A stretch of 26,719 nucleotides of DNA from positions 1 to 26,719 of IMG/VR virus record IMGVR_UViG_3300008448_000520. One strand, 5' to 3'. The notes below the pieces were generated by a model, which did no database searches, had not been told where the DNA came from, and saw nothing but the letters and a program-made list of their open reading frames with translations. Shown here in pieces: positions 4,946 to 25,892 of the stretch (positions are counted from its first letter, which is position 1; every line of letters begins with the position of its first letter). The position numbers and the translations under genes are program-made. Origin of the DNA: a virus.

Positions 4946-5503
4946 ATGAAAAAATGTAATCAATGTTTAACTGAAAAATCCTTAGAAGATTTTAGTAAAA
5001 GTAAAATTACTAAAGATGGGTTTCAATATAAATGTAAAAGTTGTGAATCACAAAATAATAAAATAGCTAGACAAAAAAATCCAACTTCTAAATATTATAA
5101 TGAAAATCCTAATTATTATAAAGAATATAGTAAAAAATGGATATTGGAAAACCAAGAAAGATGGAAAGAATATTCTAATAATTGGCAAAAATTAAATAAT
5201 AAAACTAAATACAACACTGACCCATTATATAAATTAAAAATGTGTATAGGGTCTAGAATACGTTTAGCTTTAAAAAATAATAACAAAATTAAAGAACAAC
5301 AAACTATTGAATATCTAGGATGTGATTACAAATTCCTAAAAACCTACTTAGAAAATCAATTCCAACCTAACATGACTTGGGAAAATTACGGAGAATGGGA
5401 AATAGATCATATAATTCCAGTTTCTAAAAATGGAAGTTTTCATTATTCTAATCTTCAACCCTTATGGAAAATAGATAATAGAAAGAAAAGTAATAAATTA
5501 TAA
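4946..5503 (+). CDS. HNH homing endonuclease (free-standing)
   Basis: This 185-residue protein starts with a zinc-ribbon-like pair, CNQC (C4, C7) and CKSC (C30, C33). A Lys/Asn-rich linker follows, and the HNH core is at about residues 150-185: WEIDHIIPVSKNGSFHYSNL, then QPLWK and DNRKKSNK. The DH, central N and final N-R-K pattern matches HNH nucleases. It is paralogous to the HNH genes at 12554 and 15324 (same architecture and same C-terminal QPLWK/NRKKS block). It sits between a terminator and the DNA polymerase gene, a typical insertion site for a mobile endonuclease targeting replication genes. It probably cuts a conserved DNA site in related phages lacking the element. No intron boundary is evident. 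Confidence 0.85.
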   Translation: MKKCNQCLTEKSLEDFSKSKITKDGFQYKCKSCESQNNKIARQKNPTSKYYNENPNYYKEYSKKWILENQERWKEYSNNWQKLNNKTKYNTDPLYKLKMCIGSRIRLALKNNNKIKEQQTIEYLGCDYKFLKTYLENQFQPNMTWENYGEWEIDHIIPVSKNGSFHYSNLQPLWKIDNRKKSNKL

Positions 5504-5519: not shown

Positions 5520-6866
5520 ATGTCATTTTGGATAGTAGAAACACAAGATCAATTATCACAACTCCAACCACAAGAGAGTTGCTATATTAATGTTATTCCA
5601 CTATCATCAAACTATCATCCTATATTAACTGAAGTATCTTTAATTTACTATAAACCAAAATATGGTAAAGGATTAATCTTTACAATTAACCATAGTGAAG
5701 GATTTTATCTTGCTTTAGATAAAGTAAAAGAATTTATTTTAAAACACGAATTAATTTACGTTTTAGATAAAAAAACAACAGCACATTTAATAGGGGAAGA
5801 ATTTTTACAAAATAAAGTACAAGATATAAATTTGCTTTCACTACACACCACCCTAATCACTCCGTATATACAAGATTGTCAAACAAGCATTCACACTCAT
5901 TTTGAAAGACTTTATGGGGATAAACCTTATTTAAACTCAATTATTCCAATTTGTAAACATTATGAGACTCAAGAAAAAATTTATAATGTAGTACAACAAT
6001 GGACCGAAAAACAACATGAAATCTCATATTATAACGAGGATTATATCAAAGTATTCTACGGTATTGAAAAGCAAGGTATTGCGTTGAATATGCCTGTTTT
6101 TAACGAGAGTTTTAAGCCTAATAATCCTAAATTCAATATACAAGAAGATAAAATTTATACTCAATATAACTTGTATAATTTTACCTCAAGACCTACAAAC
6201 TCGTTTAATGGAATTAACTTTGCGGCTTTAAGTAAAAATAACGGTTCCCGAGCCTCTATTGTACCTCAAAACGATTATTTATTTGAATTTGATTATGACT
6301 CGTATCATCCACGTATTTTAGCAAAACAAATTGGATATGAATTTACAGAAGCCTCGGTTCATACTCATTTAGGGAAAATGTATTTTAAAACAGAAACTCT
6401 AACGGAAGAGCAATATCAAGCCTCCAAAGAATTAACATTTAAACAACTATATGGAGGAGTATTTGAGCAATACAAAGACATACCATTTTTTGCCAAGGTA
6501 AAAGAATATACAGATAAGATATATCAAGATTACAATTCCCTGGGATATATAGAGTTAATAGGAGGGAGAAAATTATTTAATATTGAGAACCCAACCCCTC
6601 AAAAACTATTAAATTACATTATACAATCAGGGGAGACTTTTTATAATGTAAATTCAATAAAAAAAGTATTAGAATATTTGGAGAATAAAAAAAGTAATAT
6701 TATACTTTACACATATGATTCGATTTTAATAGATTATAATAGAGATGATGGGAAGGAGGTATTAAAAGAAATAAAGAATTTATTAGAGCATAGCTTTGGG
6801 TTTAAGGTTAGAATTTCTTGGGGGTATGATTATGATAACCTTAAAAAAATAAAAGCCTCTGAATAG
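5520..6866 (+). CDS. Family A (Pol I-like) DNA polymerase with degenerate exonuclease region
   Basis: This 448-residue protein has the family A palm and fingers motifs: motif A FDYDSYHPR with catalytic Asp258, motif B K303-x3-F307-x3-Y311-G, and motif C YTYDSILID with Asp400. The position of the Klenow steric-gate Glu710 is His263, and the motif C Glu is Ser401. Residues 1-200 occupy the place of a 3'-5' exonuclease domain, but the usual D-x-E and N-x-x-F-D metal motifs are not visible (for example VIPLSSNYHPILTEVSL), so proofreading is probably absent or supplied by another protein. Genome replication is the likely role, although T4 itself uses a family B polymerase. The thermophilic phage RM378 is recalled as having a family A polymerase with a separate exonuclease, a possible parallel. 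HNH and GIY-YIG genes flank it. Confidence 0.85.
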   Translation: MSFWIVETQDQLSQLQPQESCYINVIPLSSNYHPILTEVSLIYYKPKYGKGLIFTINHSEGFYLALDKVKEFILKHELIYVLDKKTTAHLIGEEFLQNKVQDINLLSLHTTLITPYIQDCQTSIHTHFERLYGDKPYLNSIIPICKHYETQEKIYNVVQQWTEKQHEISYYNEDYIKVFYGIEKQGIALNMPVFNESFKPNNPKFNIQEDKIYTQYNLYNFTSRPTNSFNGINFAALSKNNGSRASIVPQNDYLFEFDYDSYHPRILAKQIGYEFTEASVHTHLGKMYFKTETLTEEQYQASKELTFKQLYGGVFEQYKDIPFFAKVKEYTDKIYQDYNSLGYIELIGGRKLFNIENPTPQKLLNYIIQSGETFYNVNSIKKVLEYLENKKSNIILYTYDSILIDYNRDDGKEVLKEIKNLLEHSFGFKVRISWGYDYDNLKKIKASE

Positions 6867-6916: not shown

Positions 6917-7819
6917 ATGATAAATATTACAACTCTTCCTCAAACTACAAAAATTTACCTAATTACTAATTGTTACGGAGATCCTAATAAAATTTATATA
7001 GGTAAAACTAATAACAAATTTAGAAAAAATAACCATAAAAAAAGATTTGGTAAAGATTTAATTTTTACTTATATTGATGAAGTTAATTCTTTAGATAGAA
7101 AGTATTGGAAACCCTTAGAATCATTTTGGATAGAATATTTTAGATATTTGGGTTTTGATTTACAAAATAAACAAATGTGCGGTGGAAGTGGGGTAGAATT
7201 TCATACAAAGAATACAAGGGAAAAAATTAAATTAGCTAGAAAAGGGGTTGGGAAGAAAAAAATAATCCAATACGATTTAGAAGGTAATTTTATTAAAAAA
7301 TGGGATGGAGCAATTTGTGTAGAAAATGAATTAGGATTAAAAGCTTCTAACATATTAGCTAATTGTAGAAAACAAACAAAATATGCTTTTAATTTTATTT
7401 GGAGATTTGATTTTGATAAAATTAATAACAATTTTATTCTTTTAAAAGATAGAAAAGGAAAATCAGTTATACAGTACGATTTAAAAGGTAATATTATACA
7501 AGAATGGGATAGTATAACTAAAGCTTCCAAATATACTAGTACTAACCTATCAGATATCTATGCATGTTGTAATAAGCTCCAAGAAACCTCTAATAATTTT
7601 ATTTGGAGATATAAAACCTCTCCATTAGATTTTAATTTTGAATTGAAACCTAAAAAGAAAATTTTACAATTTAATAAAAATGGAGAATTTATTAAAGAAT
7701 GGGATAATATAAAAGAAATAGAAATTAATCTTCATATATACTCCTCAGGAATTGTTATGTGTTGTAAAGGAAATATTAAAACCTCTAAAGGATATATTTG
7801 GAAATATAAAAATAAATAA
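6917..7819 (+). CDS. GIY-YIG homing endonuclease with three NUMOD1-type repeats
   Basis: This 300-residue protein has an N-terminal GIY-YIG nuclease domain: KIYLIT (residues about 12-17) and KIYIGKT (about 25-31), followed by an HKK...W-x-PLE-x-F-W block. A NUMOD3-like segment near residue 95 (TKNTREKIKLARKGVGKKK) leads to three NUMOD1-type DNA-binding repeats starting near residues 116, 180 and 245. Each has the pattern (I/L)-x-Q-(Y/F)-(D/N)-x-x-G-x-(F/I)-I-(K/Q)-(K/E)-W-D and ends in F-I-W-(R/K)-Y or similar. Modular organisation of this kind is known for I-TevI-like enzymes. It is paralogous to the gene at 19666, sharing NCYGD, YIGKT and HKK. It lies just after the polymerase gene, a likely target region. 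Confidence 0.85.
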   Translation: MINITTLPQTTKIYLITNCYGDPNKIYIGKTNNKFRKNNHKKRFGKDLIFTYIDEVNSLDRKYWKPLESFWIEYFRYLGFDLQNKQMCGGSGVEFHTKNTREKIKLARKGVGKKKIIQYDLEGNFIKKWDGAICVENELGLKASNILANCRKQTKYAFNFIWRFDFDKINNNFILLKDRKGKSVIQYDLKGNIIQEWDSITKASKYTSTNLSDIYACCNKLQETSNNFIWRYKTSPLDFNFELKPKKKILQFNKNGEFIKEWDNIKEIEINLHIYSSGIVMCCKGNIKTSKGYIWKYKNK

Positions 7820-11411: not shown

Positions 11412-12440
11412 ATGAATTATAAAGATCTTTTAAACAATATAAAAGAAGATTCAACTAGCGAGACCCTACACTTAAATAGTAGGGTCTTATTAGTGGATAG
11501 TATGAATACTTTCCTGAGATCATTTGCTGTTATTAATAGTACAAATACACAAGGAACACACGTAGGGGGTATGATTGGTTTTTTAAGATCATTAGCTTAT
11601 GTGGTTAATTTAGTACAACCTACTAGAGTAATTTGTGTTTTTGATGGTGAAGGGAATACTACTAATAGAAAACATTTATATGCTGATTATAAAGGTAATC
11701 GTAAATTAAAAAGAGTAACAAATTGGTCTTCATTTGATAATCTAGAAGAAGAATCTGCTTCATTATCACAACAAATATTAAGATTAATTGATTATTTAAA
11801 AACATTACCTATCAATATTATAACCAGAGATAAATTAGAAGCAGATGATATTATTGGGTATTTAGCTCCTAAATTTGATTCATCAATTATAATGTCAGCC
11901 GATCAAGATTTCTTACAATTATGTAGTGATACTGTACAAGTATATTCCCCAATTAAGAAAAAATTTTATGGTCCTAAAGAGGTATTTGATGAATATGGGT
12001 TATGGCCCCAAAACTTTATTAATTATAAAGTATTAATGGGCGATAGTTCTGATAATTTACCTGGAGTTAAAGGATTAGGTCCTAAAAAATTATTTAAATT
12101 ATTTCCTGAACTTACTGAAGATGCTAAAGTAACTTTAAAGGAAATTATTCAAAAGGGACATGATAAGCATGAAGAGAATGGGATTTATGGCAATGTTTAT
12201 TTATTTAGAAAACAACTAGAGATAAATGAACAATTAATGTCATTAGAAAACCCTAATATTCCTGATTATGATATTGAAGTACTAGAAAGTTTATTATTAG
12301 AAGATCCTTATACTTTAAATCAAACAAGGTTCTTACAATTACACCAATCAGATTTACTAGAAAGGCAAATATCTCCCAACATAGAATTTTGGTTAAGTTC
12401 TAACTTTTCATATTTAACTAAATATTCTCATAAGTCTTAG
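11412..12440 (+). CDS. rnh: 5'-3' exonuclease / RNase H (FEN-1 family, T4 rnh-like)
   Basis: This 342-residue protein would remove RNA primers and flaps from lagging strands. It contains the FEN-1/T4 RNase H metal motifs: LLVDSMNTFLRSF (Asp29), VFDGEG followed by NRKHLYADYKGNR, EADDIIGYLA, SADQDF (D-x-D), and the helix-hairpin-helix-type MGDSSDNLPGVKGLGPKKL. All acidic ligands appear intact. It starts 2 nt after uvsX and is followed by a structured RNA and an HNH gene, which separate it from the helicase gene. A strong hairpin (11461-11487) lies inside codons 17-26. Confidence 0.88.
   Translation: MNYKDLLNNIKEDSTSETLHLNSRVLLVDSMNTFLRSFAVINSTNTQGTHVGGMIGFLRSLAYVVNLVQPTRVICVFDGEGNTTNRKHLYADYKGNRKLKRVTNWSSFDNLEEESASLSQQILRLIDYLKTLPINIITRDKLEADDIIGYLAPKFDSSIIMSADQDFLQLCSDTVQVYSPIKKKFYGPKEVFDEYGLWPQNFINYKVLMGDSSDNLPGVKGLGPKKLFKLFPELTEDAKVTLKEIIQKGHDKHEENGIYGNVYLFRKQLEINEQLMSLENPNIPDYDIEVLESLLLEDPYTLNQTRFLQLHQSDLLERQISPNIEFWLSSNFSYLTKYSHKS
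11461..11491 (+). terminator. Perfect 9-bp hairpin inside the start of rnh; possible attenuator
   Basis: AGACCCTAC (11461-11469), loop ACTTAAATA, GTAGGGTCT (11479-11487), then TATT. The perfect stem with a T-rich tail resembles an intrinsic terminator but lies 49 nt inside the rnh coding region. It may attenuate rnh relative to uvsX, or act at translation or mRNA processing. Confidence 0.45.
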
Positions 12441-12452
12441 TAAATTTCTCAA

Positions 12453-12460
12453 TATTTATA
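12453..12460 (+). promoter_or_regulatory. ATATTTAT motif (candidate phage late promoter)
   Basis: The motif lies 4 nt before the first hairpin of the kissing-loop RNA at 12464-12543, so that RNA would be the leader of the HNH transcript. Confidence 0.45.
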
Positions 12461-12463
12461 CAT

Positions 12464-12543
12464 GCATTGTCGCGGTGCAAATATAAAATATTAATTTAGA
12501 ACCTATGATGAGTAAGGACCGCGACCCCGAAAATCATAGGTTT
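12464..12543 (+). ncRNA. Two-hairpin kissing-loop / pseudoknot leader RNA before an HNH gene
   Basis: The first hairpin is TGCA (12464-12467) and TGCA (12477-12480) around the 9-nt loop TTGTCGCGG. The second is AACCTATGAT (12501-12510) and ATCATAGGTT (12534-12543), a perfect 10-bp stem followed by TTCTTT, with a 23-nt loop. GTCGCGG (12470-12476) is the exact complement of CCGCGAC (12520-12526) in the second loop; the pairing reaches 8 bp if the closing T12477-A12519 is used. The GC-rich pairing segments stand out in AT-rich DNA. It could be a regulatory leader or terminator/attenuator for the HNH gene at 12554. I recognise no known riboswitch or ribozyme class. Confidence 0.55.
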
Positions 12544-12553
12544 CTTTATCAAA

Positions 12554-13144
12554 ATGAAAAAATGTAGTAAATGTAAAATTGAAAAATCTTTAGATAATTT
12601 TTCATCAAATAAATCTAATAAAGATGGGAAAAATAATTATTGTAAATCCTGTGATAAAGTTAGAGTTAAAAGATATCAAGAAAATAATAAATCCCAAACT
12701 TTATTATATTTAAAAGACTGGAGAGATAATAATCCTGATTATGATAAAAATTATACTAAAAATAATTATGAAAAGTCTAGGAATTATAGAAAAAAATATC
12801 AAAAAGATAGAATAAAAAATAATCCTGATGTTAGATTAACTCATAATATTAGAACATTAATTTTAATTTCATTTAAAAACTGTTTAAAAGGAAGTTATAA
12901 AAAGGGTAAAAAAACTGAAGAAATATTAGGCTGCACTTTAGAAGAATTTATCCAATATTTACAATCACAGTTTATTGAAGGTATGACTTTAGAAAATCAT
13001 GGTGAATGGGAAATTGATCATATAATACCTTTAGCTTCAGCGCAAACTGAAGAAGATATTTATGTATTAAATCATTATACTAACCTCCAACCCTTATGGA
13101 AAGAAGATAATAGAAAGAAAAGTGCTAAAATATTAGGCTTTTAA
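12554..13144 (+). CDS. HNH homing endonuclease (free-standing)
   Basis: This 196-residue protein is a paralogue of those at 4946 and 15324. The N-terminal zinc-ribbon-like motif is CSKC (C4, C7) with CKSC about 23 residues later. A basic, Asn-rich linker precedes the HNH core in the last 45 residues: WEIDHIIPLAS, then N-L-QPLWK and DNRKKSAK. It separates the rnh-like and helicase genes, which are otherwise part of the same replication module, so it is probably an insertion. The structured RNA at 12464-12543 forms its 5' leader. Confidence 0.85.
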   Translation: MKKCSKCKIEKSLDNFSSNKSNKDGKNNYCKSCDKVRVKRYQENNKSQTLLYLKDWRDNNPDYDKNYTKNNYEKSRNYRKKYQKDRIKNNPDVRLTHNIRTLILISFKNCLKGSYKKGKKTEEILGCTLEEFIQYLQSQFIEGMTLENHGEWEIDHIIPLASAQTEEDIYVLNHYTNLQPLWKEDNRKKSAKILGF

Positions 13145-13182
13145 TAAAAAATATATTATATTAAATAAAATTACAATAAGTT

Positions 13183-14559
13183 ATGACATTACAAAGACTC
13201 GAAGAGTATGGACCTACTTTCCAATTAAAAGTAATTAATGCTTTATTAAAGGATAAAGCATTTCTCTTAAATGTAAGAGATATAATAGATGAAGATCATT
13301 TTCCTAATCCTAGTCATAAATGGATCTTAAAAGAATTATTAAAATTTTTTGATTTATATCATACAACTATAACACTTGATTCATTAAAAATAGAGTTAAA
13401 AAAGATTGATAATGAAATTTTACAAACTGCTGTAAAGGAACAGTTAAAATTAGTTTATACTACTCAATATGATGATCAAGAATATGTTGAAGAAGAATTC
13501 TCTAATTTTTGTAAAAACCAATTACTAAAAAACGCTTTACTAGACTCAGTAGATTTACTAAAAAATGGTCATTACGATGATATCAGATTACTAATTGATA
13601 ATGCTTTAAAAGCAGGAGCTGATAAGAATTTAGGTCATGAATATGTTAAAGATATTGAAGATCGATATAGAGAAGAAAGTAGAAAAGTTGTACCTACACC
13701 TTGGCCTTTAATTAATGATCTATTACAAGGAGGATTAGGAAATGGTGATTTTGGATTAATATTTGGTGGACCTGGTGGTGGTAAATCATGGGCTTTAGTT
13801 GCTTTAGGGGCATTCGCCGCTCAATTAGGTTACAAAGTAATACATTATACTTTAGAGTTAGGTGAAGCTTATGTTGGTAAAAGATATGATGCTTTTTATA
13901 CTAATATAAGTGTTAGTGAAATAGGTTTTAATAAAGATAAAGTAATAGATACTTTAAAAGACATGGAAGATAATGTTATTATTAAAGAATATGCTCCTAA
14001 AATTGCTTCATTAACTACTATTAAATCTCATATTCAAAAAACAAAAGATTTAGGTTTTACACCTGATTTAATTTTAATTGATTATGTTGACTTATTAAAA
14101 CCACCTTCTAAACGTAGTAGAGATAGAAAAGAAGAAATTGATGACTTGTACTACGGAACTAAAAGTTTAGCTAAAGAACTAAATTTACCTGTTTGGTCAG
14201 TATCACAAGTAAATCGTTCAGGTGCCAAAGATGAAGTAGTAGAAGGAGATAAAGCAGCCGGATCTTATGATAAAATGATGGTAATTGATTTTGGTATGTC
14301 TCAATCACGTTTAAGAAAAGATAAAACAGAAGGTACAGGACGTTTTCATATTATGAAAAACAGATATGGAATGGATGGTATGACATACTTTGCAGAAATT
14401 GATACTTCAACAGGTCACATTGTTATGGATGAAAGAGAGATAGTTGATGAATCTCCTGCTGAAAATTCGAAACCTTCATTTGGAGGAATTACAATTAATG
14501 AAAAAAATGCAATGAGTGATTTGTTCAAACACTTTACTTTAAACAATGATACTGAATAA
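13183..14559 (+). CDS. 41: Replicative DNA helicase, DnaB / T4 gp41-like
   Basis: This 458-residue protein is a ring helicase that unwinds DNA ahead of the polymerase. Residues 1-150 form the helical N-terminal (primase-interacting) domain. The RecA-like motor follows, with Walker A GGPGGGKS (195-202, Lys201) and Walker B DLILIDYVDLL (Asp300), then WSVSQVNRSG (sensor/H4-like) and the C-terminal RFHIMKNRYGMDG (R-finger/H5 region). Its length is close to T4 gp41. The start is preceded by AATAAGTT as for other genes here. No helicase loader or primase is in this window. The gene ends at 14559, right where an ATATTTAT motif begins. Confidence 0.88.
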   Translation: MTLQRLEEYGPTFQLKVINALLKDKAFLLNVRDIIDEDHFPNPSHKWILKELLKFFDLYHTTITLDSLKIELKKIDNEILQTAVKEQLKLVYTTQYDDQEYVEEEFSNFCKNQLLKNALLDSVDLLKNGHYDDIRLLIDNALKAGADKNLGHEYVKDIEDRYREESRKVVPTPWPLINDLLQGGLGNGDFGLIFGGPGGGKSWALVALGAFAAQLGYKVIHYTLELGEAYVGKRYDAFYTNISVSEIGFNKDKVIDTLKDMEDNVIIKEYAPKIASLTTIKSHIQKTKDLGFTPDLILIDYVDLLKPPSKRSRDRKEEIDDLYYGTKSLAKELNLPVWSVSQVNRSGAKDEVVEGDKAAGSYDKMMVIDFGMSQSRLRKDKTEGTGRFHIMKNRYGMDGMTYFAEIDTSTGHIVMDEREIVDESPAENSKPSFGGITINEKNAMSDLFKHFTLNNDTE

Positions 14560-14593: not shown

Positions 14594-15271
14594 ATGTTAC
14601 CTAAAAATAAAGAGTTGGTTAAAAAACTCTATCAAGATTATAAACAAAATTATTTAAATGAGTTATATGATACTCCTTTACAGTTTAAAAAAGAAAATAA
14701 TACTAAATATATTGTTTATAATAATAATAAAGAATTAGCTTACTTTTTATTTATTTTTAGGTATGATATGAATAATTCACCTATTGATTATAAAAAATAT
14801 AAGTTAGATAGATATTGGGATGTAAGTTGGTATTGGGTTGATAACCTACCAAAAACTGAAAAAGATACTAAAAATTTTATTAAAGTCACTTCTACTTCTT
14901 TTAAAGTAGTTAATGATTTTATAAAAAATAATAACTATCCTCCTTTATTAGGATTTGGGGGATTGACTGAACAACATGAAAGAATATATTCTAATCAATC
15001 ATTTTTAGATAGATGGAAATTTCTTTTAGGAGAAAGATACTATACTGAATGGGACTCACAGAATGATAAAGTATGGATAATAAATAAAAACTTCTATAAA
15101 ATAGATGAAGTAAAAATATATCAAGCTTCACAATTTTTTAAAAAAAGTCCATCTCTAATATTCCAAGAAGAAAAATATCCTATTAAAAGTAAATTAAAAG
15201 GAATAAATTATCATAATTTAATTAAAGAACAAATTAAAAGAGTAATATTAAAACAAATATATTTAAAATAA
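14594..15271 (+). CDS. Hypothetical protein of unknown function
   Basis: This 225-residue protein is soluble, with no signal peptide or membrane segment. It is rich in Tyr, Trp and Lys. Visible features are an alpha/beta N-terminal part (KYIVYNNNKELAYFLFIF), an aromatic WDVSWYWVDNLP segment, a Gly-rich PPLLGFGGLTEQHERIY stretch, SFLDRWKFLLGERYYTEWD, and a very basic C-terminal helix (LIKEQIKRVILKQIYLK). I do not recognise the family. It sits between the helicase gene and an HNH gene, in the region leading to nrdBA. The basic tail could bind nucleic acid, but no catalytic motif is visible. Confidence 0.5.
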   Translation: MLPKNKELVKKLYQDYKQNYLNELYDTPLQFKKENNTKYIVYNNNKELAYFLFIFRYDMNNSPIDYKKYKLDRYWDVSWYWVDNLPKTEKDTKNFIKVTSTSFKVVNDFIKNNNYPPLLGFGGLTEQHERIYSNQSFLDRWKFLLGERYYTEWDSQNDKVWIINKNFYKIDEVKIYQASQFFKKSPSLIFQEEKYPIKSKLKGINYHNLIKEQIKRVILKQIYLK

Positions 15272-15300
15272 AATTTTATTAAGATTTCATTGGCTAGTGC

Positions 15301-15308
15301 ATATTTAT
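15301..15308 (+). promoter_or_regulatory. ATATTTAT motif (candidate phage late promoter)
   Basis: The motif ends 15 nt before the chosen ATG (15324) of the HNH gene. This argues against using the GTG at 15297, which would place the promoter motif inside the gene. Confidence 0.45.
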
Positions 15309-15323
15309 AATAAAATAAAAATT

Positions 15324-15923
15324 ATGAAGAAAGTATGTATTAAGTGCAATATTGAAAAAGAATTAATTGAATTTTATATTAAAGGAAATACATGTAAAGA
15401 TTGTAAAAAACAATATTTCAAAACCTATAAAGATGTAAATAAAGATAAAGTTTATAAAAAGTGTAGAGAATGGAATTTAAAGAATAAAGAAAAAATAAAA
15501 GAGTATACTGAAATATGGATTAATAATAATAAGGAAAAGCATAAAAATATTAAAAATAAAGCATTTAAAAAATTTATATCAGTTCCTGAAAATAGAGAGA
15601 AGAGAAAAAAATACGATAAAAAGTATAAAAAATCCTTAAGAGATTCTAATATTGACTTTAAATTAAAAGATAATATTCAAAGTATGATTTCATATCATAT
15701 CCATAAAAAAATATCTAATACCCTTAAATATTTAGGTTGTTCTATTCAAGAATATAAATTACATTTAGAAAAACAATTTGATGAAAATATGACTTGGGAA
15801 AATTATGGAACTTATTGGGAAATTGACCATATAATACCATTAAGTAAGAATGGTAGTTTTCATTATACTAATACCCAACCTTTAACAATTACCGAAAATA
15901 GGAAAAAATCAAATAAATTATAA
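15324..15923 (+). CDS. HNH homing endonuclease (free-standing)
   Basis: This 199-residue protein is the third paralogue of the 4946/12554 family. I chose ATG 15324 (MKKVCIKCNIEKE) because it lines up with the MKKC starts of the other two; an in-frame GTG at 15297 adds nine residues with no counterpart. The zinc-ribbon-like part is CIKC plus CKDC, followed by a very Lys-rich middle. The HNH core lies at the C-terminus: YWEIDHIIPLSKNGSFHYTN, then TQPLTITENRKKSNK. The QPLWK of its relatives is QPLTI here. It ends 3 nt before nrdB, so insertion next to the ribonucleotide reductase genes is likely. Confidence 0.83.
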   Translation: MKKVCIKCNIEKELIEFYIKGNTCKDCKKQYFKTYKDVNKDKVYKKCREWNLKNKEKIKEYTEIWINNNKEKHKNIKNKAFKKFISVPENREKRKKYDKKYKKSLRDSNIDFKLKDNIQSMISYHIHKKISNTLKYLGCSIQEYKLHLEKQFDENMTWENYGTYWEIDHIIPLSKNGSFHYTNTQPLTITENRKKSNKL

Positions 15924-15926
15924 ATT

Positions 15927-16877
15927 ATGCTTACTAAACAAAGAGTATTTTACAAACCCTTCGAATATCCTGAAGCCTTTGAATTTTATGAAAACCAACA
16001 AAGAGCCCATTGGTTACCAAGTGAAGTTCCACTAGCATCAGACTTAAACGACTGGAAGCTAAAATTAACAGAATCAGAAAAAAACCTAATAGGAAATATC
16101 CTAAAATCATTTGCACAAACTGAAGTACACGTAAATGATTATTGGTCATCAAACGTATCAAAATGGTTTCCAAAACCAGAGATTGTAGCAATGACTTCAA
16201 CTTTTGGTTCATTTGAAGCAATTCATGCTCAAGCATATGCTCGTTTAAATGAAGAGTTAGGACTAGAAGATTTTGCTGCATTTTTAGAAGATGAAGCCTC
16301 AGCAGCTAAAATTGAACGTTTATTATCAATTCCTAATGATACTATCGAAGAAAGAGCGCAATCTTTAGCTATATTCTCTGCATTCACGGAAGGTGTTAAT
16401 TTATTCTCTTCATTCGCGATTTTAATGTCTTTCCAATTAAGAAACTTAATGAAAGGTACTTCGCAAATTGTGGAGTGGAGTGTGAGAGATGAATCTTTAC
16501 ACTCTAAAGCCGGTTGTTGGTTATTTAGAACATTACTAAGTGAGCAACCTGAATTAAACACTGATGAATTAAGAAACAAAATAACTGAAGCTTGTCATTT
16601 ATCAGTACAATTAGAATTTAATTTCATTGACAAAGCATTTGAAATGGGAGCAGTTGAAGGTTTAAATGTAGACCAATTGAAAAACTTCATCAAAGCCAGA
16701 GCAAATGAAAAAATGATTGAATTAGGTTATCACGCTGTTTACAATGATATTGATCCAAATTTATTAAAACAAATGGAATGGTTCGGTCACTTAACATCAG
16801 GCAAAACACACCAAGATTTCTTTGCGGGAAGAAATACTGATTATGCTAAATCTATAGCAGATTGGTCAGATTTATAA
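15927..16877 (+). CDS. nrdB: Ribonucleoside-diphosphate reductase, small (radical) subunit NrdB
   Basis: This 316-residue protein carries the di-metal site and tyrosyl radical for class I ribonucleotide reductase, supplying dNTPs for phage DNA synthesis. Matched to E. coli NrdB by motif: first metal ligand Glu66 in QTEVHV (Asp84 in E. coli), Glu97 and His100 in FEAIH, radical Tyr104, Glu155 in FTEGVNLF, and Glu189/His192 in RDESLH. All positions needed for activity are filled, and the Tyr is present, so it is not the Tyr-less class Ic type. The Asp-to-Glu change at the first ligand is seen in some subclasses. It is 19 nt upstream of nrdA. Confidence 0.92.
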   Translation: MLTKQRVFYKPFEYPEAFEFYENQQRAHWLPSEVPLASDLNDWKLKLTESEKNLIGNILKSFAQTEVHVNDYWSSNVSKWFPKPEIVAMTSTFGSFEAIHAQAYARLNEELGLEDFAAFLEDEASAAKIERLLSIPNDTIEERAQSLAIFSAFTEGVNLFSSFAILMSFQLRNLMKGTSQIVEWSVRDESLHSKAGCWLFRTLLSEQPELNTDELRNKITEACHLSVQLEFNFIDKAFEMGAVEGLNVDQLKNFIKARANEKMIELGYHAVYNDIDPNLLKQMEWFGHLTSGKTHQDFFAGRNTDYAKSIADWSDL

Positions 16878-19665: not shown

Positions 19666-20316
19666 ACGGTAATAAATATAACATATATCTATTTAATTGA
19701 AAATTGCTACGGGGATATTGATAAATTCTATATAGGTAAAACTATTAACCCCAAATCTCGTAAAGAGAAACATAAGAAAAAATACGGAAAAGATATTTTA
19801 TTTACTATTATAGATGAAATATCCTCAACTAGTTCTAAAGATTGGAAGCCCTTGGAAATTTTTTGGATAAAATATTTTAAATTTTTAGGATTTAATTTAT
19901 TAAACCAAAACAACGGAGGAGGTGGACATATAGGAGGTATTCCCTCTTGGAACTCTGGAAAGAAGTTAGGTCCTAATCCTAAAATAACTTTAGCTAAAAT
20001 CAATCATCCTGATCGTTCTAAAGTTATTTTACAATACGATCTAGAAGGAAATTTTATCAAAGAGTATCCTAGTATAATGGAAGCTCGCAGAAATAATCCT
20101 AAAGGAGATATTGATAGTTGTGTTCAAGGTAAACAAAAGCAAGCAGGAGGTTACCAATGGGTTTATAAAAATAAAGTAATACTTGAAAAAATACAACCAT
20201 ATGAAAGAACTAGAAAATCTAAATACCAGACAATTGAAGAAAAAAAAGAAGCTAAAAAGATGATAGATTTCAGGTATTACCAGAAGAAAAAAACAATATT
20301 AACAAACGTAAAATAG
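19666..20316 (+). CDS. GIY-YIG homing endonuclease with apparent ACG start codon
   Basis: The frame is open from the stop at 19654-19656 to 20316. Read from ACG 19666 it encodes (M)VINITYIYLIENCYGD and FYIGKT, matching the start of the paralogue at 6917 (MINITT, KIYLITNCYGD, KIYIGKT). No ATG, GTG or TTG lies near that position; the first good alternative, TTG 19852, would cut off the GIY-YIG core. ACG replacing ATG therefore looks like a start-codon mutation, and expression may be weak. The protein (216 residues) has a NUMOD3-like IPSWNSGKKLG, one NUMOD1 repeat (VILQYDLEGNFIKEYPSIME) and a basic tail. It is inserted between the endolysin and the second holin-like gene. Confidence 0.75.
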   Translation, partial: TVINITYIYLIENCYGDIDKFYIGKTINPKSRKEKHKKKYGKDILFTIIDEISSTSSKDWKPLEIFWIKYFKFLGFNLLNQNNGGGGHIGGIPSWNSGKKLGPNPKITLAKINHPDRSKVILQYDLEGNFIKEYPSIMEARRNNPKGDIDSCVQGKQKQAGGYQWVYKNKVILEKIQPYERTRKSKYQTIEEKKEAKKMIDFRYYQKKKTILTNVK

Positions 20317-20740: not shown

Positions 20741-20777
20741 AATATTTAAAAAATATTAATAAAAATTTTTTTCTACT

Positions 20778-20785
20778 ATATTTAT
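20778..20785 (+). promoter_or_regulatory. ATATTTAT motif (candidate phage late promoter)
   Basis: The motif lies 10 nt before the first stem of the kissing-loop RNA at 20796, the same arrangement as at 12453. Confidence 0.45.
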
Positions 20786-20795
20786 ATTAAATAAC

Positions 20796-20883
20796 AGGTA
20801 CTAGTCCTACCTAGAAAAAACATTACGGAGATTTTAAAAACCTACTATGGACTAGATAGTTGTTTTTAATTTCTCCTTTTTTT
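20796..20883 (+). ncRNA. Kissing-loop RNA with terminator-like 3' hairpin, before a GIY-YIG gene
   Basis: Hairpin 1 is AGGTA (20796-20800), a 7-nt loop CTAGTCC (20801-20807) and TACCT (20808-20812). Hairpin 2 has apex ACTAT (20844-20848), a 7-nt loop GGACTAG (20849-20855) and ATAGT (20856-20860), on a longer stem from 20827-20841 with 20862-20876 (13 of 15 pairs), ending in a T-run at 20877-20883. The two 7-nt loops are exact complements, an intramolecular kissing-loop arrangement. The T-run makes hairpin 2 look like an intrinsic terminator, so loop-loop contact may set read-through into the GIY-YIG gene at 20891. A small RNA acting in trans is an alternative. Confidence 0.7.
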
Positions 20884-20890
20884 ATTTAAT

Positions 20891-21577
20891 ATGATAGGTA
20901 TTTATAAAATAATAAATCCAAAAGGTAGAATTTATATAGGGCAAAGTGTTAATATAGAAAGAAGAAAGGGGAATTACAGTAAATTACAAGACTGTAAAAA
21001 TCAAATAAAATTGTACCGTTCCCTAAAGAAGTATGGGTTTTCCTCACATATTTTTGAAGTACTCGAAGAGTGCACTATTGACGAGTTAAATAAAAAGGAG
21101 AGATATTGGCAAGATTTCTATAATGTTCTAGAAGAAGGTCTAAATTGTAAATTAACTAAGACAGAAGATAAATCAGGACTTATGTCTAAAGAATTAAGAG
21201 ATAGGTTGAGTAAGAGTCATTTGCAACGTAACAGCACAGAAGAGGGAAAGATTAGTATAAGAAAGCGTGTAGAAAACACAGACTACATTAAAAGAACAGC
21301 TAATACTGATTATAAAAAGAAAGTACTTAATACAGATTATGCTAAAAGAACACTCAACTTTGATTATGAGAAGAAAGTAAACAATACTAACTATAGTGAA
21401 ATAGGTAAAAAGCATATGAAAGCAGTTCAACAATTTACAAAAGAAGGTATATTTATTAGAGAATGGTCTTCCGTAAAAGAAGCAGGAGAAACTCTAAAAA
21501 TACAACGAGGAGACATCTCAGGATGTTGTAGAGGAGTGAATAAATCCTCAGGTGGGTTTATTTGGAAGTATAGATAA
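20891..21577 (+). CDS. GIY-YIG homing endonuclease with internal nonapeptide repeats
   Basis: This 228-residue protein has a GIY-YIG domain at the N-terminus: GIYKI (3-7), RIYIGQS (13-19), an Arg in the N-IERRK block, and a conserved E in ERYWQDFYNVLEEGLN (metal ligand candidate). A NUMOD3-like segment (SKELRDRLSKSHLQRN) follows, then five tandem nine-residue units of the form N-x-(D/N)-Y-x-(K/E)-(K/R/I)-x-x. The C-terminus is one NUMOD1 repeat (VQQFTKEGIFIREWSSVKEA) ending in GGFIWKYR. It differs from the 6917/19666 pair in the nuclease domain. It is inserted between the second holin-like gene and the spanin-like pair, downstream of the kissing-loop RNA. Confidence 0.85.
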   Translation: MIGIYKIINPKGRIYIGQSVNIERRKGNYSKLQDCKNQIKLYRSLKKYGFSSHIFEVLEECTIDELNKKERYWQDFYNVLEEGLNCKLTKTEDKSGLMSKELRDRLSKSHLQRNSTEEGKISIRKRVENTDYIKRTANTDYKKKVLNTDYAKRTLNFDYEKKVNNTNYSEIGKKHMKAVQQFTKEGIFIREWSSVKEAGETLKIQRGDISGCCRGVNKSSGGFIWKYR

Positions 21578-21596
21578 GAAATAAAACAAACAAGAG

Positions 21597-22319: not shown

Positions 22320-22835
22320 ATGATGTATAATCCTCCTTTATCACAAGAGCAGTTAGAAAAAAAATTCAAAAAGTTACGTAAACTAAATTACAATAAATTT
22401 AGATGGTGGAGAATGTATGATGATCCTAAACCTCCATTACCTAAACAATCTCCTTTACTAGATCGAATTAAAAATGGTGATTTTGATTACTCCCACTACA
22501 ATTATCAAGCTATGTGGTGTGAGCACGAAATGAACAAAATTCATGACAAATATGGTTTCTCTGATATGGGGAGATATGTGGAAGAAACCTCTTTACTTCG
22601 CTCCAGAAGAAAACGTTTATTAGAAGATCATTATAAAGAAGAAGATAATAAATTAGAATCTATTGTTATTGAATTTACTAAAAATTTTAAAATAACTAAA
22701 GATGAAATAAAAACTCTAATGGGAGAATTTGATGGTACCCTAGAGGAGTTGTATATTCATTTACAACAAAAATTTCCACCAAAAAAATTTCAATTACCCC
22801 CATCATTAAAACATTTACAATCACGTTATGATTAA
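22320..22835 (+). CDS. Hypothetical protein, translationally coupled to the DpdA-like gene
   Basis: This 171-residue soluble protein is Lys/Arg- and aromatic-rich (KFRWWRMYDDPKPPLPKQ, then YNYQAMWCEHEMNKIHDKYG). It has no recognisable domain, signal peptide or membrane segment. The C-terminal half is mostly helical (DEIKTLMGEFDGTLEELYIH). The stop overlaps the next start (ATGATTAA), so it is probably translated together with the transglycosylase-like protein at 22828 and may work with it. Function unknown. The start is preceded by AAAAGTT, like several genes here. Confidence 0.5.
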   Translation: MMYNPPLSQEQLEKKFKKLRKLNYNKFRWWRMYDDPKPPLPKQSPLLDRIKNGDFDYSHYNYQAMWCEHEMNKIHDKYGFSDMGRYVEETSLLRSRRKRLLEDHYKEEDNKLESIVIEFTKNFKITKDEIKTLMGEFDGTLEELYIHLQQKFPPKKFQLPPSLKHLQSRYD

Positions 22836-23616
22836 AATTTCACACGAAGTACCAATTTCTCTTTTTGAACACAACATAAATTGGTCAGATTATGACTATT
22901 GTCTTCCGGTATTTATGGATAAATATCCTGAATATAGGCAATATTTCTTAGATTCTAGAGAACGAGATAGATTTATTATAATGGATAATTCTTTATTTGA
23001 GGGTTATTCTCACACTACTCAAGATCTACTTGAAAAAATTGATTTAATTAAACCAGATATCTTTATTGTTCCTGATGAATGGAATGATTCAACAATTACG
23101 GCTAAAAACGCTAAACATTGGTTACAATACAAGATGCCAATGCGTACTAAATTAATGGTAGTATTGCAAGGAAAAACCGTGAGTGATATACATTTATTGT
23201 ATCAACAATGTGTAGATTTGGGTTATACTCATTTTGCCTTCAATCATTCCTCTATTGTATACCAAGAATTAGGTGGTTCAGAAAATGCTTTAGCTAATCA
23301 ATCTGTTGGAAGAGTATTATTAATTCAATACTTATTACAACAAAAAGTAATTAAAGATCACCATTATATTCATTTATTAGGAGCATCAACACCCCAAGAA
23401 TTTACATTCTATAGAGATGCAGTACCTAATCTAGTTAATTCAGTTGATACTTCAAATCCCATTATTTGTGGTGCTTTAGGTATTAAATATACTGAAACAG
23501 GTTTATTAGAAAAACCTAAGGAAAAAATTGAAGAATTTATGGAAAAAGATTTGTCTTCTCAATTAGAAGATATTATATTTAATGTAAATAAATTTAAAGA
23601 ATTTTGTCAAAAATGA
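22828..23616 (+). CDS. dpdA: DpdA-like transglycosylase (7-deazaguanine insertion into DNA), TGT superfamily
   Basis: This 262-residue protein resembles phage DpdA proteins, which belong to the tRNA-guanine transglycosylase superfamily and exchange guanine for a 7-deazaguanine in DNA. Supporting motifs: MDNSLFEGY with Asp53 (the position of the TGT D-S/N-G acid), KPDIFIVPDEWND (76-87), VVLQGK (111-116), and NSVDTSNP with candidate nucleophile Asp207, the DpdA-like substitute for the second TGT Asp. There is no zinc-binding Cys cluster like that of bacterial TGT. A QueC-like gene 662 bp downstream in the same run of genes supports a 7-deazaguanine role. Identification is by motif recall, so an unrelated TIM-barrel enzyme is not excluded. 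Confidence 0.6.
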   Translation: MIKISHEVPISLFEHNINWSDYDYCLPVFMDKYPEYRQYFLDSRERDRFIIMDNSLFEGYSHTTQDLLEKIDLIKPDIFIVPDEWNDSTITAKNAKHWLQYKMPMRTKLMVVLQGKTVSDIHLLYQQCVDLGYTHFAFNHSSIVYQELGGSENALANQSVGRVLLIQYLLQQKVIKDHHYIHLLGASTPQEFTFYRDAVPNLVNSVDTSNPIICGALGIKYTETGLLEKPKEKIEEFMEKDLSSQLEDIIFNVNKFKEFCQK

Positions 23617-23753
23617 TAAAGTTTTATTTAATACAATTAATTAATCGCCCACTTAGATGGTTTGGATACAGTTATCAAAGAATGGCTGAGATTAATTATG
23701 AAACTTTTGAAGTAATTTATCATCCTTGGAAATTAGAAAAATTAAAAAAATGA
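23613..23753 (+). CDS. Short basic hypothetical protein
   Basis: This 46-residue frame starts with an ATGA overlap with the DpdA-like stop and encodes MIKFYLIQLINRPLRWFGYS, then YQRMAEINYETFEV and a basic tail. It ends with a stop overlapping the next ATG (AATGACC). Such 4-nt overlaps on both sides strongly suggest a translated reading frame. It is rich in aromatic and basic residues, with no predicted function. Confidence 0.45.
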   Translation: MIKFYLIQLINRPLRWFGYSYQRMAEINYETFEVIYHPWKLEKLKK

Positions 23754-23965
23754 CCGAAGTTATAAATCATATTTGTGGGGCTTGTGGGGAAAATCATCCC
23801 CATATTTTCAACCTTTCTGCTTTTCTAGTTGGAGTAGCAGGATATTTTTCGTATATTAAATTTACAATAAAAAATAAATTAAATGAACAAAAAATTAGTA
23901 TTATTATTAGTAAGATTATCTCCTGCTCAAACCTTTTCAAAAGAAAAAGTACTAGAAATTATTAA
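23750..23965 (+). CDS. Small membrane protein with N-terminal CxxC (hypothetical)
   Basis: This 71-residue protein starts at ATG 23750, which overlaps the preceding stop by four bases. A TTG further upstream (23726) is also in frame but would run back into the previous gene. The N-terminus has ICGACGENHPH, a CxxC followed by two His that could bind a metal. One predicted membrane segment follows (IFNLSAFLVGVAGYFSYI). The last 27 residues overlap the next gene in another frame and look less protein-like (KISIIISKIISCSNLFKRKS), so the useful part may be only about 45 residues. Function unknown. Confidence 0.4.
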   Translation: MTEVINHICGACGENHPHIFNLSAFLVGVAGYFSYIKFTIKNKLNEQKISIIISKIISCSNLFKRKSTRNY

Positions 23966-24221
23966 TTTAATCAAAGAACCAGTTATGGAAAAAACATTAG
24001 AACAAAAACCTTACATGATGTCATTATATGACTATTTAGGTCGAGCAGCCGGAAAACAATTAGGAGCAGAAGTAGCTGCTACTGCGGCTGCACTAAAAGA
24101 AACAATTGAAGAAAGACATATTGAAAATCCTGCTTATAAAGGGCTAGTACATCTATATCGTAGAGAATTTTTAGATGAATATTTTGGAAATAAAGTATAT
24201 GAAGGAGAACAAAAAAAGTAA
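23883..24221 (+). CDS. Hypothetical alpha-helical protein
   Basis: This 112-residue protein has an N-terminal stretch (KKLVLLLVRLSPAQTFSKEK) that overlaps the preceding gene by 83 nt. The remainder includes YMMSLYDYLGRAAGKQLGAE, an Ala-rich helix (VAATAAALKETIEERH) and LYRREFLDEYFG. The codon pattern (TTA, GTA, GAA) supports translation from 23883. An alternative start is ATG 23985, which has an AGTT upstream context and gives a 78-residue protein without the overlap. The SLYDYLGRAAG block looks conserved, but I cannot name the family. It lies just upstream of the queC leader. Confidence 0.5.
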   Translation: MNKKLVLLLVRLSPAQTFSKEKVLEIINLIKEPVMEKTLEQKPYMMSLYDYLGRAAGKQLGAEVAATAAALKETIEERHIENPAYKGLVHLYRREFLDEYFGNKVYEGEQKK

Positions 24222-24228
24222 TTATAAA

Positions 24229-24260
24229 AGGGTTTGCCTATACCCTATTAATACCTGGCA
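24229..24260 (+). promoter_or_regulatory. Compact pseudoknot upstream of queC; possible preQ1-type riboswitch
   Basis: AGGGT (24229-24233) pairs with ACCCT (24242-24246). TGCC in the hairpin loop (24235-24238) pairs with GGCA (24257-24260), giving an H-type pseudoknot of about 32 nt. It sits 18 nt before the queC-like start. Size, topology and the AT-rich linker recall preQ1-I riboswitches, and the downstream gene is in the same pathway, but the conserved preQ1-I bases are not convincingly present. The second stem is only 4 bp. Confidence 0.3.
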
Positions 24261-24277
24261 CAAATTAAATTATAATT

Positions 24278-25192
24278 ATGTCTAAAAAACACGTTGTATT
24301 AAGTTTAAGTGGTGGAGCAGATAGTAGTTCTTTATTACTTAGATTATTAAATGATGGTTATGAAGTAACCGCATTATCTTTTGATATAGGTCAAAAGCAT
24401 AAAATAGAATTGGAAAGAGCTACTGAATTAGTAGAATATTTGAATAGTTTGGAAAACAAAATGATGGAAGATGGTGGGAAACCCATGTTTCATCCAATCC
24501 AACATCAAATAATTAAATTAGATGGTTTATCCAATTTATTAGTAAGTGGTCTTATAGATAATGATTCTATGGAGATGAAGAAAGGTCATTATGCACATGA
24601 AAATGCCTTAACTACGGTAGTACCTAATCGTAATGCTATATTTGCTGCTATAACTTATGCTGTAGCTTTATCTATAGTTAAAAGAACAGGAGATGAATGT
24701 AAAATTGCCCTAGGTACTCATATGGGGGATTTTAACAATAAAACTCAAACTGGAATCTATCCTGACTGTTCAGAAGAATTTAAAGTAGCATTAGAACATG
24801 CATTTAAAATTGGGAACTGGGATTCAGATAAAGTAGATTATTATGCTCCTTATAACTCAACTGATAAAACTGGGGTAATTGGAGATGGTGTTAAATGTTG
24901 TAAAGAATTAGGTTTAAATTATAAAGAAATTTACTCCAGAACTAACACTAGCTATGCACCCATAAAAGTATTCTACCCTGGTTCAACTATGGAAGATATG
25001 AGAAATGGGGGAGGTGAAATTGTTTGGTATAGTGATTATAAATCAGGTTCAAGTATTGAGAGAATTGAATCTTTCATTAAGTTAGGATTAGAAGATCCTC
25101 TTCAATATGCTGAAGAAGATGGTACCTTAGTATCTTGGGATTTTGTAAAAAGTTATGTAGAAGAAATTTGTAAAGAATTTAATTCTAAATAA
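24278..25192 (+). CDS. queC: QueC-like enzyme (7-cyano-7-deazaguanine synthase family) lacking zinc cysteines
   Basis: This 304-residue protein belongs to the PP-loop ATPase family with QueC, which makes preQ0 from CDG, ATP and ammonia. The PP-loop is SLSGGADSSSLLLR (SGGADS at about 11-16). VPNRNAIFAAITYAVA and GTHMGDFNNKTQTGIYPDC match the conserved core. It is about 70 residues longer than typical QueC. The C-terminal structural zinc site of QueC (a Cys near TWSCY plus CGxCxSC) is absent: the equivalent stretches read TNTSYAP and SDYKSGSSIER. It may be a functional variant or a QueC-like enzyme making another 7-deazaguanine derivative. With the DpdA-like gene upstream, a role in DNA modification is inferred. 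Confidence 0.75.
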   Translation: MSKKHVVLSLSGGADSSSLLLRLLNDGYEVTALSFDIGQKHKIELERATELVEYLNSLENKMMEDGGKPMFHPIQHQIIKLDGLSNLLVSGLIDNDSMEMKKGHYAHENALTTVVPNRNAIFAAITYAVALSIVKRTGDECKIALGTHMGDFNNKTQTGIYPDCSEEFKVALEHAFKIGNWDSDKVDYYAPYNSTDKTGVIGDGVKCCKELGLNYKEIYSRTNTSYAPIKVFYPGSTMEDMRNGGGEIVWYSDYKSGSSIERIESFIKLGLEDPLQYAEEDGTLVSWDFVKSYVEEICKEFNSK

Positions 25193-25241: not shown

Positions 25242-25892
25242 ATGAATAACCTTAATATAAAAGATACAAGATATTGTAAAAAATGTAATAAAAATTTACC
25301 TAAAACTTTAGAATACTTTCCTCATAGAAAATCAGATAAATCAGGATTTGGATTATATTGTAAAGTATGTATAAATAAAGATAAAAGAGAAAAAAGAAGT
25401 GAATTAAGAAAACTATGGGATAAAGGAGGAGTAATAGAAGGACAAGAAGGAAGAAAATGTACTATATGTAAGAATATATACCCTCCCACTCATGATTATT
25501 TTGGAGTTCATAAAGGAAATTCTTTAAATTTAGATACTTATTGTAAAATTTGTAGAAAAGAAAAAGGTAGAGCTAATTACAATAAAAATAAAGAATCTTG
25601 GAATAAAACTCATAATAAAACAAAACTTGAAAAAATAAATAAAATACAAGAAATTAAAAAACAAAGTAAAGGCTGTTCTAAATGCAATGAAAAACGCCAT
25701 TACTTATTAGATTTTCATCATTTAGACCCTTCCCAAAAATTATTTCAAATAGGGCAGGGGGAATCAAAAGGGTGGGATAAAGTATTAGAAGAAATGAAAA
25801 AATGTATTTTATTATGTAAAAATTGTCATGCTGAATTCCATTACCAAGAAAAAACACAAAATATTAATATACAAGAATATTTAAAATTATGA
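25242..25892 (+). CDS. HNH endonuclease with two extra zinc-ribbon motifs
   Basis: This 216-residue protein belongs to a different HNH subfamily from the three at 4946, 12554 and 15324. Two N-terminal zinc-ribbon-like modules, CKKC...CKVC and CTIC...CKIC, precede a Lys-rich linker. A C-terminal HNH of the CxxC type follows: CSKCNEKRHYLLDFHHLDP and ILLCKNCHAEFHYQ. The HH and final H-x-x-x-H plus the two CxxC pairs are the expected catalytic and zinc-binding residues. It is a likely free-standing homing endonuclease. The leader has an ATATTTAT motif and a hairpin. Its stop overlaps the next start by ATGA, coupling it to the gene at 25889. Confidence 0.83.
   Translation: MNNLNIKDTRYCKKCNKNLPKTLEYFPHRKSDKSGFGLYCKVCINKDKREKRSELRKLWDKGGVIEGQEGRKCTICKNIYPPTHDYFGVHKGNSLNLDTYCKICRKEKGRANYNKNKESWNKTHNKTKLEKINKIQEIKKQSKGCSKCNEKRHYLLDFHHLDPSQKLFQIGQGESKGWDKVLEEMKKCILLCKNCHAEFHYQEKTQNINIQEYLKL

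Follow-up and report, generated by a model that had tools for sequence, protein, structure and literature searches.

Organization of the locus

The window, i.e. the whole stretch of DNA analyzed, is a linear virus record of 26.7 kb, and it is a fragment, since matching viral contigs reach up to 150–175 kb. It encodes a phage baseplate-hub-type protein, a polymerase-like protein, SSB, UvsX, an exonuclease, DnaB, NrdB, NrdA and an endolysin; tRNA and Rfam scans of the whole window found nothing. The two open reading frames that the preliminary description had taken for a DpdA-like and a QueC-like gene are present where it had placed them (22828–23616, 262 aa, and 24278–25192, 304 aa), and they lie close together in about 90 related viral loci, far beyond what would be expected by chance. 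The smaller ORFs starting at 22320, 23613, 23750 and 23883 are real genes, being conserved in relatives too. The region is laid out as follows:

22320–22835, plus strand: conserved gene overlapping the start of the transglycosylase gene, found in about 45 of 100 loci
22828–23616, plus strand: DpdA-type guanine transglycosylase, DpdA3-like, 262 aa (AlphaFold2 model, fold search, orthologs and an 84-sequence alignment)
23613–23753, plus strand: small ORF overlapping the stop of the transglycosylase gene, found in 29–31 loci
23750–23965, plus strand: small ORF with a CxxC motif and a hydrophobic stretch, its cluster present in 38 loci
23883–24221, plus strand: small conserved protein of the SLYDYLG family, candidate QueC partner, adjoining QueC in most loci
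24278–25192, plus strand: QueC-family enzyme of 304 aa that has lost the zinc ligands (PF06508 match and motif columns)
25242–25892, plus strand: HNH endonuclease directly downstream of QueC (phrog_2255, 1.6e-26), possible driver of QueC exchange

A separate feature of the window is the presence, within 26.7 kb, of seven homing-endonuclease-like ORFs:

4946–5503, 6917–7819, 12554–13144, 15297–15923, 19852–20316, 20891–21577 and 25242–25892: homing-endonuclease-like ORFs (HNH or GIY-YIG)

Several of these are located at sites that are uninterrupted in close relatives (e.g. 12425–13202, 14600–15940 and 20742–21592). A homing endonuclease ORF also comes after the gene at 5520–6866, which encodes a 448-aa protein matching phage DNA polymerases in its C-terminal part only (phrog_17, 6e-7). 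This may represent a polymerase-like gene that is unusually short, or else part of a gene that has been split.

A compact transglycosylase of the DpdA type

The product of 22828 gave no significant match in Pfam, NCBIfam or PADLOC, and among the PHROGs it matched only the unannotated phrog_19058 (9e-33). Weak matches of the transglycosylase and the small ORFs to DUF6610 fell below the cut-off and were discarded. Searches of PDB sequences with phmmer and hmmsearch yielded no credible match either, DpdA 7ui4 appearing at E 0.63. The AlphaFold2 model, built from a 53-sequence alignment (pLDDT 95.3, pTM 0.92), has the (beta/alpha)8 barrel of the TGT type. Its best solved structures in Foldseek were DpdA 7ui4 (E 1.1e-5) and 6rkt (2.3e-5), and all 50 of the 50 matches listed by VIA-align were TGT or DpdA, with Z of 17.1–17.9 over about 231 residues; matches among viral structures included a protein of Vibrio phage nt-1 and phage proteins that bear the name queuine transglycosylase. 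The preliminary description had held that a predicted structure departing from the TGT fold would overturn the DpdA assignment, which has come through this comparison, as the DNA preQ0 insertase DpdA 7ui4 and TGTs head all matches. Since sequence similarity to classical TGT and DpdA is not significant, the assignment rests on the fold and on close relatives.

A tblastn search of phage isolates retrieved 19 records, namely 4 of Flavobacterium ‘immuto’ phages and 15 of Campylobacter phages, CP220 and CPt10 among them. The immuto ortholog (35.6% identity), annotated as DNA guanine transglycosylase DpdA, is the closest named relative, and the orthologs of CP220 and CPt10 (32%) are annotated ‘hypothetical protein’; all of them align over 97–99% of the length. 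CP220 gp056 (L108:14995-15771) and the CC_R7 gene (L107:8001-8741) thus carry the label ‘hypothetical protein’ despite homology to an annotated DpdA. The transglycosylase also occurs on contigs assigned to MAGs of bacteria and archaea (L126-L134), which are probably misbinned phage contigs.

Conserved in 53–84 aligned sequences are D53-N54, P82-D83, Q114, H182-x-x-G185 and D207-T-S, with D53, D83, G185 and D207 invariant and Q114 at 98%. Judged by the order of motifs along the barrel, and not by superposition, these residues follow the TGT active site and supply the two catalytic Asp and the base-recognition Asp, Gln and Gly. The presumed catalytic positions are:

22984–22986, plus strand: codon of invariant Asp53 (DN[S/G]LxE), corresponding by order to the first TGT catalytic Asp
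23446–23448, plus strand: codon of Asp207 (SxDTSxP), corresponding by order to the TGT nucleophile Asp; D207-T208-S209 are invariant in the alignment

With a weak score, hhalign pairs the Asp53 stretch with ‘FLDSGAF’ of 9g DpdA. No conserved Cys/His set resembling the TGT zinc domain is found in the alignment. By analogy with its orthologs, the 22828 product probably replaces guanine in the DNA of the phage itself with a modified 7-deazaguanine.

A QueC-family enzyme without zinc ligands

The QueC-like call for 24278 is borne out by matches to the Pfam QueC family PF06508 (E 1.8e-28, above the cut-off), to phrog_1550 ‘QueC-like’ (8.4e-29) and to TIGR00364 (6.4e-27, below the equivalog cut-off). 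The catalytic motifs SGGxDS, QxHxxE, VPxRN and YPDC and the equivalent of Tyr189 are all present, and the equivalents of R99, Y131 and Y189 are conserved in 80–81 of 81 QueC sequences. The zinc motif C(x)8CxxCxxC, a hallmark of QueC (PMC13329287), is however lost, its four cysteines being replaced by S225, D253, S256 and S259 in two segments identified from the motif columns:

24938–24955, plus strand: RTNTSY, in which S225 replaces zinc Cys 1 and Y226 is the retained essential Tyr189 equivalent
25031–25054, plus strand: SDYKSGSS, in which D253, S256 and S259 replace zinc Cys 2–4 (CxxCxxC)

Each position of the Ser/Asp/Ser/Ser set is held by 75–77 of the 81 non-redundant QueC sequences (about 76 overall), and since these sequences are diverse the replacement does not represent decay. 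Zinc cysteines are retained in QueC of E. coli and of the loci L105 and L134, and the zinc motif also occurs in Campylobacter phage CC_R7; L105 and L134, where a zinc-cysteine QueC accompanies a related transglycosylase, are possibly closer to the ancestral state. Elsewhere among phage isolates, a search for zinc-less QueC matched the C-terminal region in immuto only, and this Ser/Asp version of the base-making step is apparently undescribed. Both Y35 and Y189 are essential, Y35A abolishing the activity of E. coli QueC (PMC13329287); the Tyr35 equivalent is Ile37 in the window, one of 6 among the 81 sequences with Ile there.

Because the ATP and substrate motifs are kept, the window QueC is predicted probably still to work on CDG. 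It is conceivable, but on balance unlikely, that the zinc-less enzyme no longer makes preQ0: its reaction may end at ADG, it may couple CDG to a different molecule, or it may be inactive, with preQ0 taken from the host. Such a change would affect how the base is made and would leave room for DNA modification. It would fit the replacement of the four cysteines, the Tyr35 to Ile change in the window, and the changed function of further lineages of the QueC family that lack the zinc motif (PMC13329287). Retention of the four catalytic motifs and Tyr189, unlike in QatC, LarE or GMPS, argues against it, as do the wide conservation of the replacement and the presence together, in immuto, of a zinc-less QueC and a protein annotated as QueF, an enzyme that depends on preQ0.

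Small neighbouring genes

Of the coupled small genes that the preliminary description had suggested may be partners, only 23883 is strongly linked to the two enzymes; 22320 is absent around about half of the relatives. Among 50,697 phage records, the core of the 23883 protein (about 60 residues) was found only in immuto phages. In 69 newly fetched loci with 23883, QueC or the transglycosylase lies within 6 kb in 61 and elsewhere in the record in 5 more, a linkage that partly reflects shared ancestry, since these loci are similar to the window and several of them are contigs that the earlier set already contained. The best independent case is immuto, in which the gene order is different. On a single contig, a 23883-type protein is fused in frame to QueC (L074:2125-3255). 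A fold search with the core model (pLDDT 80.6) returned no convincing match. It is plausible that 23883 is a new partner gene. The 22320 product had no family match in Pfam, PHROG or NCBIfam, and a role as obligate partner was rejected, the gene being missing near the transglycosylase in about half of the loci. Neither did the small ORFs match Pfam, NCBIfam or PADLOC significantly.

Apparent exchange of QueC between phages

Phages with a transglycosylase 86–90% identical to that of the window mostly have a QueC only 48–53% identical, whereas the window QueC is 64–81% identical to that of phages whose transglycosylase is only 32–48% identical. A short insert before YPDC is common to the window QueC and nearly all of the latter, and the same mismatch between QueC and transglycosylase is seen in L012/L099 and L048. 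The simplest reading of these identities is that the window QueC has apparently been exchanged in place from distant phages. An HNH endonuclease gene directly follows QueC in the window, L081 and L094, and a similar HNH gene is located 53–120 nt after QueC in L081, L094 and L014. Since the two QueC types are not distinguished by whether a homing endonuclease is present (6 of 23 for type B versus 11 of 54 for type A), the endonuclease is only a possible driver of the exchange.

Pathway and proposed mode of action

The search for folE, queD and queE that the preliminary description had called for came up empty in the 26.7 kb fragment but was successful in most large relatives: among 14 contigs, FolE is present in 13, QueD in 12 and a radical SAM (QueE-type) gene in 10, one of the 10 matches (G006) being a larger protein that may not be QueE. 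These genes are often within 8 kb of the transglycosylase. In L004, with a transglycosylase 89% identical to that of the window, QueD lies at +7.5 kb and QueE at +8.0 kb, and the window stops at +3.9 kb, short of these distances. The three genes are expected in the part of the genome that the fragment does not cover. No QueF was found in the 14 relatives (weak QueF family matches lying inside FolE were rejected), nor were homologs of the immuto QueF and formyltransferase, in searches run without a positive control.

The fold, the conservation of the active site, the orthology to enzymes from phages whose DNA contains 7-deazaguanine and the pathway genes in relatives together support 22828 and 24278 as 7-deazaguanine DNA-modification genes, with DNA as the target suggested by that orthology. 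We consider it highly probable that a phage-made 7-deazaguanine is exchanged into replicated phage DNA by the DpdA-type enzyme and shields it from restriction. FolE, QueD and QueE would convert GTP to CDG, and QueC would convert CDG to ADG and/or preQ0, with a conserved Ser/Asp site where zinc would otherwise be bound and perhaps aided by the small 23883 protein. The transglycosylase would then exchange the free base for guanine in replicated DNA, which, as in other phages, may be protected from restriction (PMC6884629). By analogy with CP220 and CPt10, most guanines may be replaced, and the modified nucleoside could be dPreQ0, dADG or another.

It is very improbable that the transglycosylase instead acts on tRNA, the phage boosting queuosine in host tRNA for translation and leaving its DNA unmodified: its nearest functional relatives are in phages with 7-deazaguanine DNA, the enzyme is shorter (262 aa) than E. 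coli TGT (375 aa) and has no TGT-like zinc-domain Cys/His set, and bacterial TGT requires preQ1 although no QueF was found in the 14 relatives. The fold is nevertheless the same as that of tRNA TGT, and a tRNA role has been proposed for phages that carry preQ0 genes and lack DpdA (PMC6884629). We give equally little credence to exchange of the base on free nucleotides followed by incorporation of the modified dNTP by a polymerase. The idea draws on a thymidylate-kinase gene near the DpdA ortholog in immuto and directly adjoining it in CP220 and CC_R7, on a DNA polymerase gene also nearby in CC_R7 and immuto, and on the ribonucleotide reductase genes 4–7 kb from the window transglycosylase. However, no kinase gene was seen beside the transglycosylase in the window, and Crippen and colleagues (2019) reportedly did not find dADG phosphates in cells infected by the phage. 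DpdA enzymes already known have been proposed to act on DNA (PMC6884629).

Going further than DNA modification as such, one may tentatively envisage a distinct QueC lineage, with a conserved Ser/Asp/Ser/Ser site in place of the zinc site, a dedicated 23883 partner and possibly a changed product (e.g. by stopping at ADG), that feeds a compact transglycosylase replacing nearly all guanine, the QueC allele being a module swappable between phages; we rate this combination as doubtful.

Significance and comparison with known systems

In kind, a phage pathway for 7-deazaguanine that uses a compact, DpdA3-like enzyme is already known and as such ordinary. About 100 environmental phage loci carry the compact transglycosylase, however, most of them with a zinc-less QueC, and zinc is part of the published QueC signature; at stake is whether preQ0 can be made without zinc or the product has changed. 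The 23883 protein is a named candidate partner, and the transglycosylase loci provide a well-sampled family in which to study how phages cope with extensive replacement of guanine.

Canonical QueC (E. coli, PF06508) shares SGGxDS, QxHxxE, VPxRN, YPDC and the Tyr189 equivalent with the window QueC, but has C(x)8CxxCxxC and Tyr35 where the latter has S/D/S/S and Ile, together with a longer C-terminus. The window transglycosylase has the same TIM-barrel TGT fold as bacterial DpdA (7ui4) and phage 9g-type DpdA, but is smaller (262 versus 413 and 317 aa) and has no significant sequence similarity to them. It and its orthologs probably belong to the DpdA3 subfamily described by Cui et al. 2023, which reportedly permits guanine to be replaced completely and whose example phages presumably carry orthologs of the window enzyme. 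Campylobacter phages CP220 and CPt10 (Firehammervirus) have, besides the transglycosylase ortholog (32%), their own QueC and QueD. Unlike in the window, no 23883 homolog was found in them, QueC of CP220 is far from the transglycosylase gene, and QueC of the related phage CC_R7 retains the zinc cysteines. Campylobacter phages of this kind have been listed among those that possess the pathway and lack DpdA (PMC6884629), and PMC8306585, citing Crippen 2019, gives 100% of dG in CP220 and CPt10 DNA as replaced by dADG. Flavobacterium phage vB_FspM_immuto_2-6A (NC_055915) differs from the window in gene order, and it has, beside DpdA, a QueF and a formyltransferase-like gene unmatched in the 14 relatives of the window phage; it shares DpdA (35.6%), the zinc-less QueC (49%) and the 23883 protein (63%), and encodes FolE, QueD and QueE.
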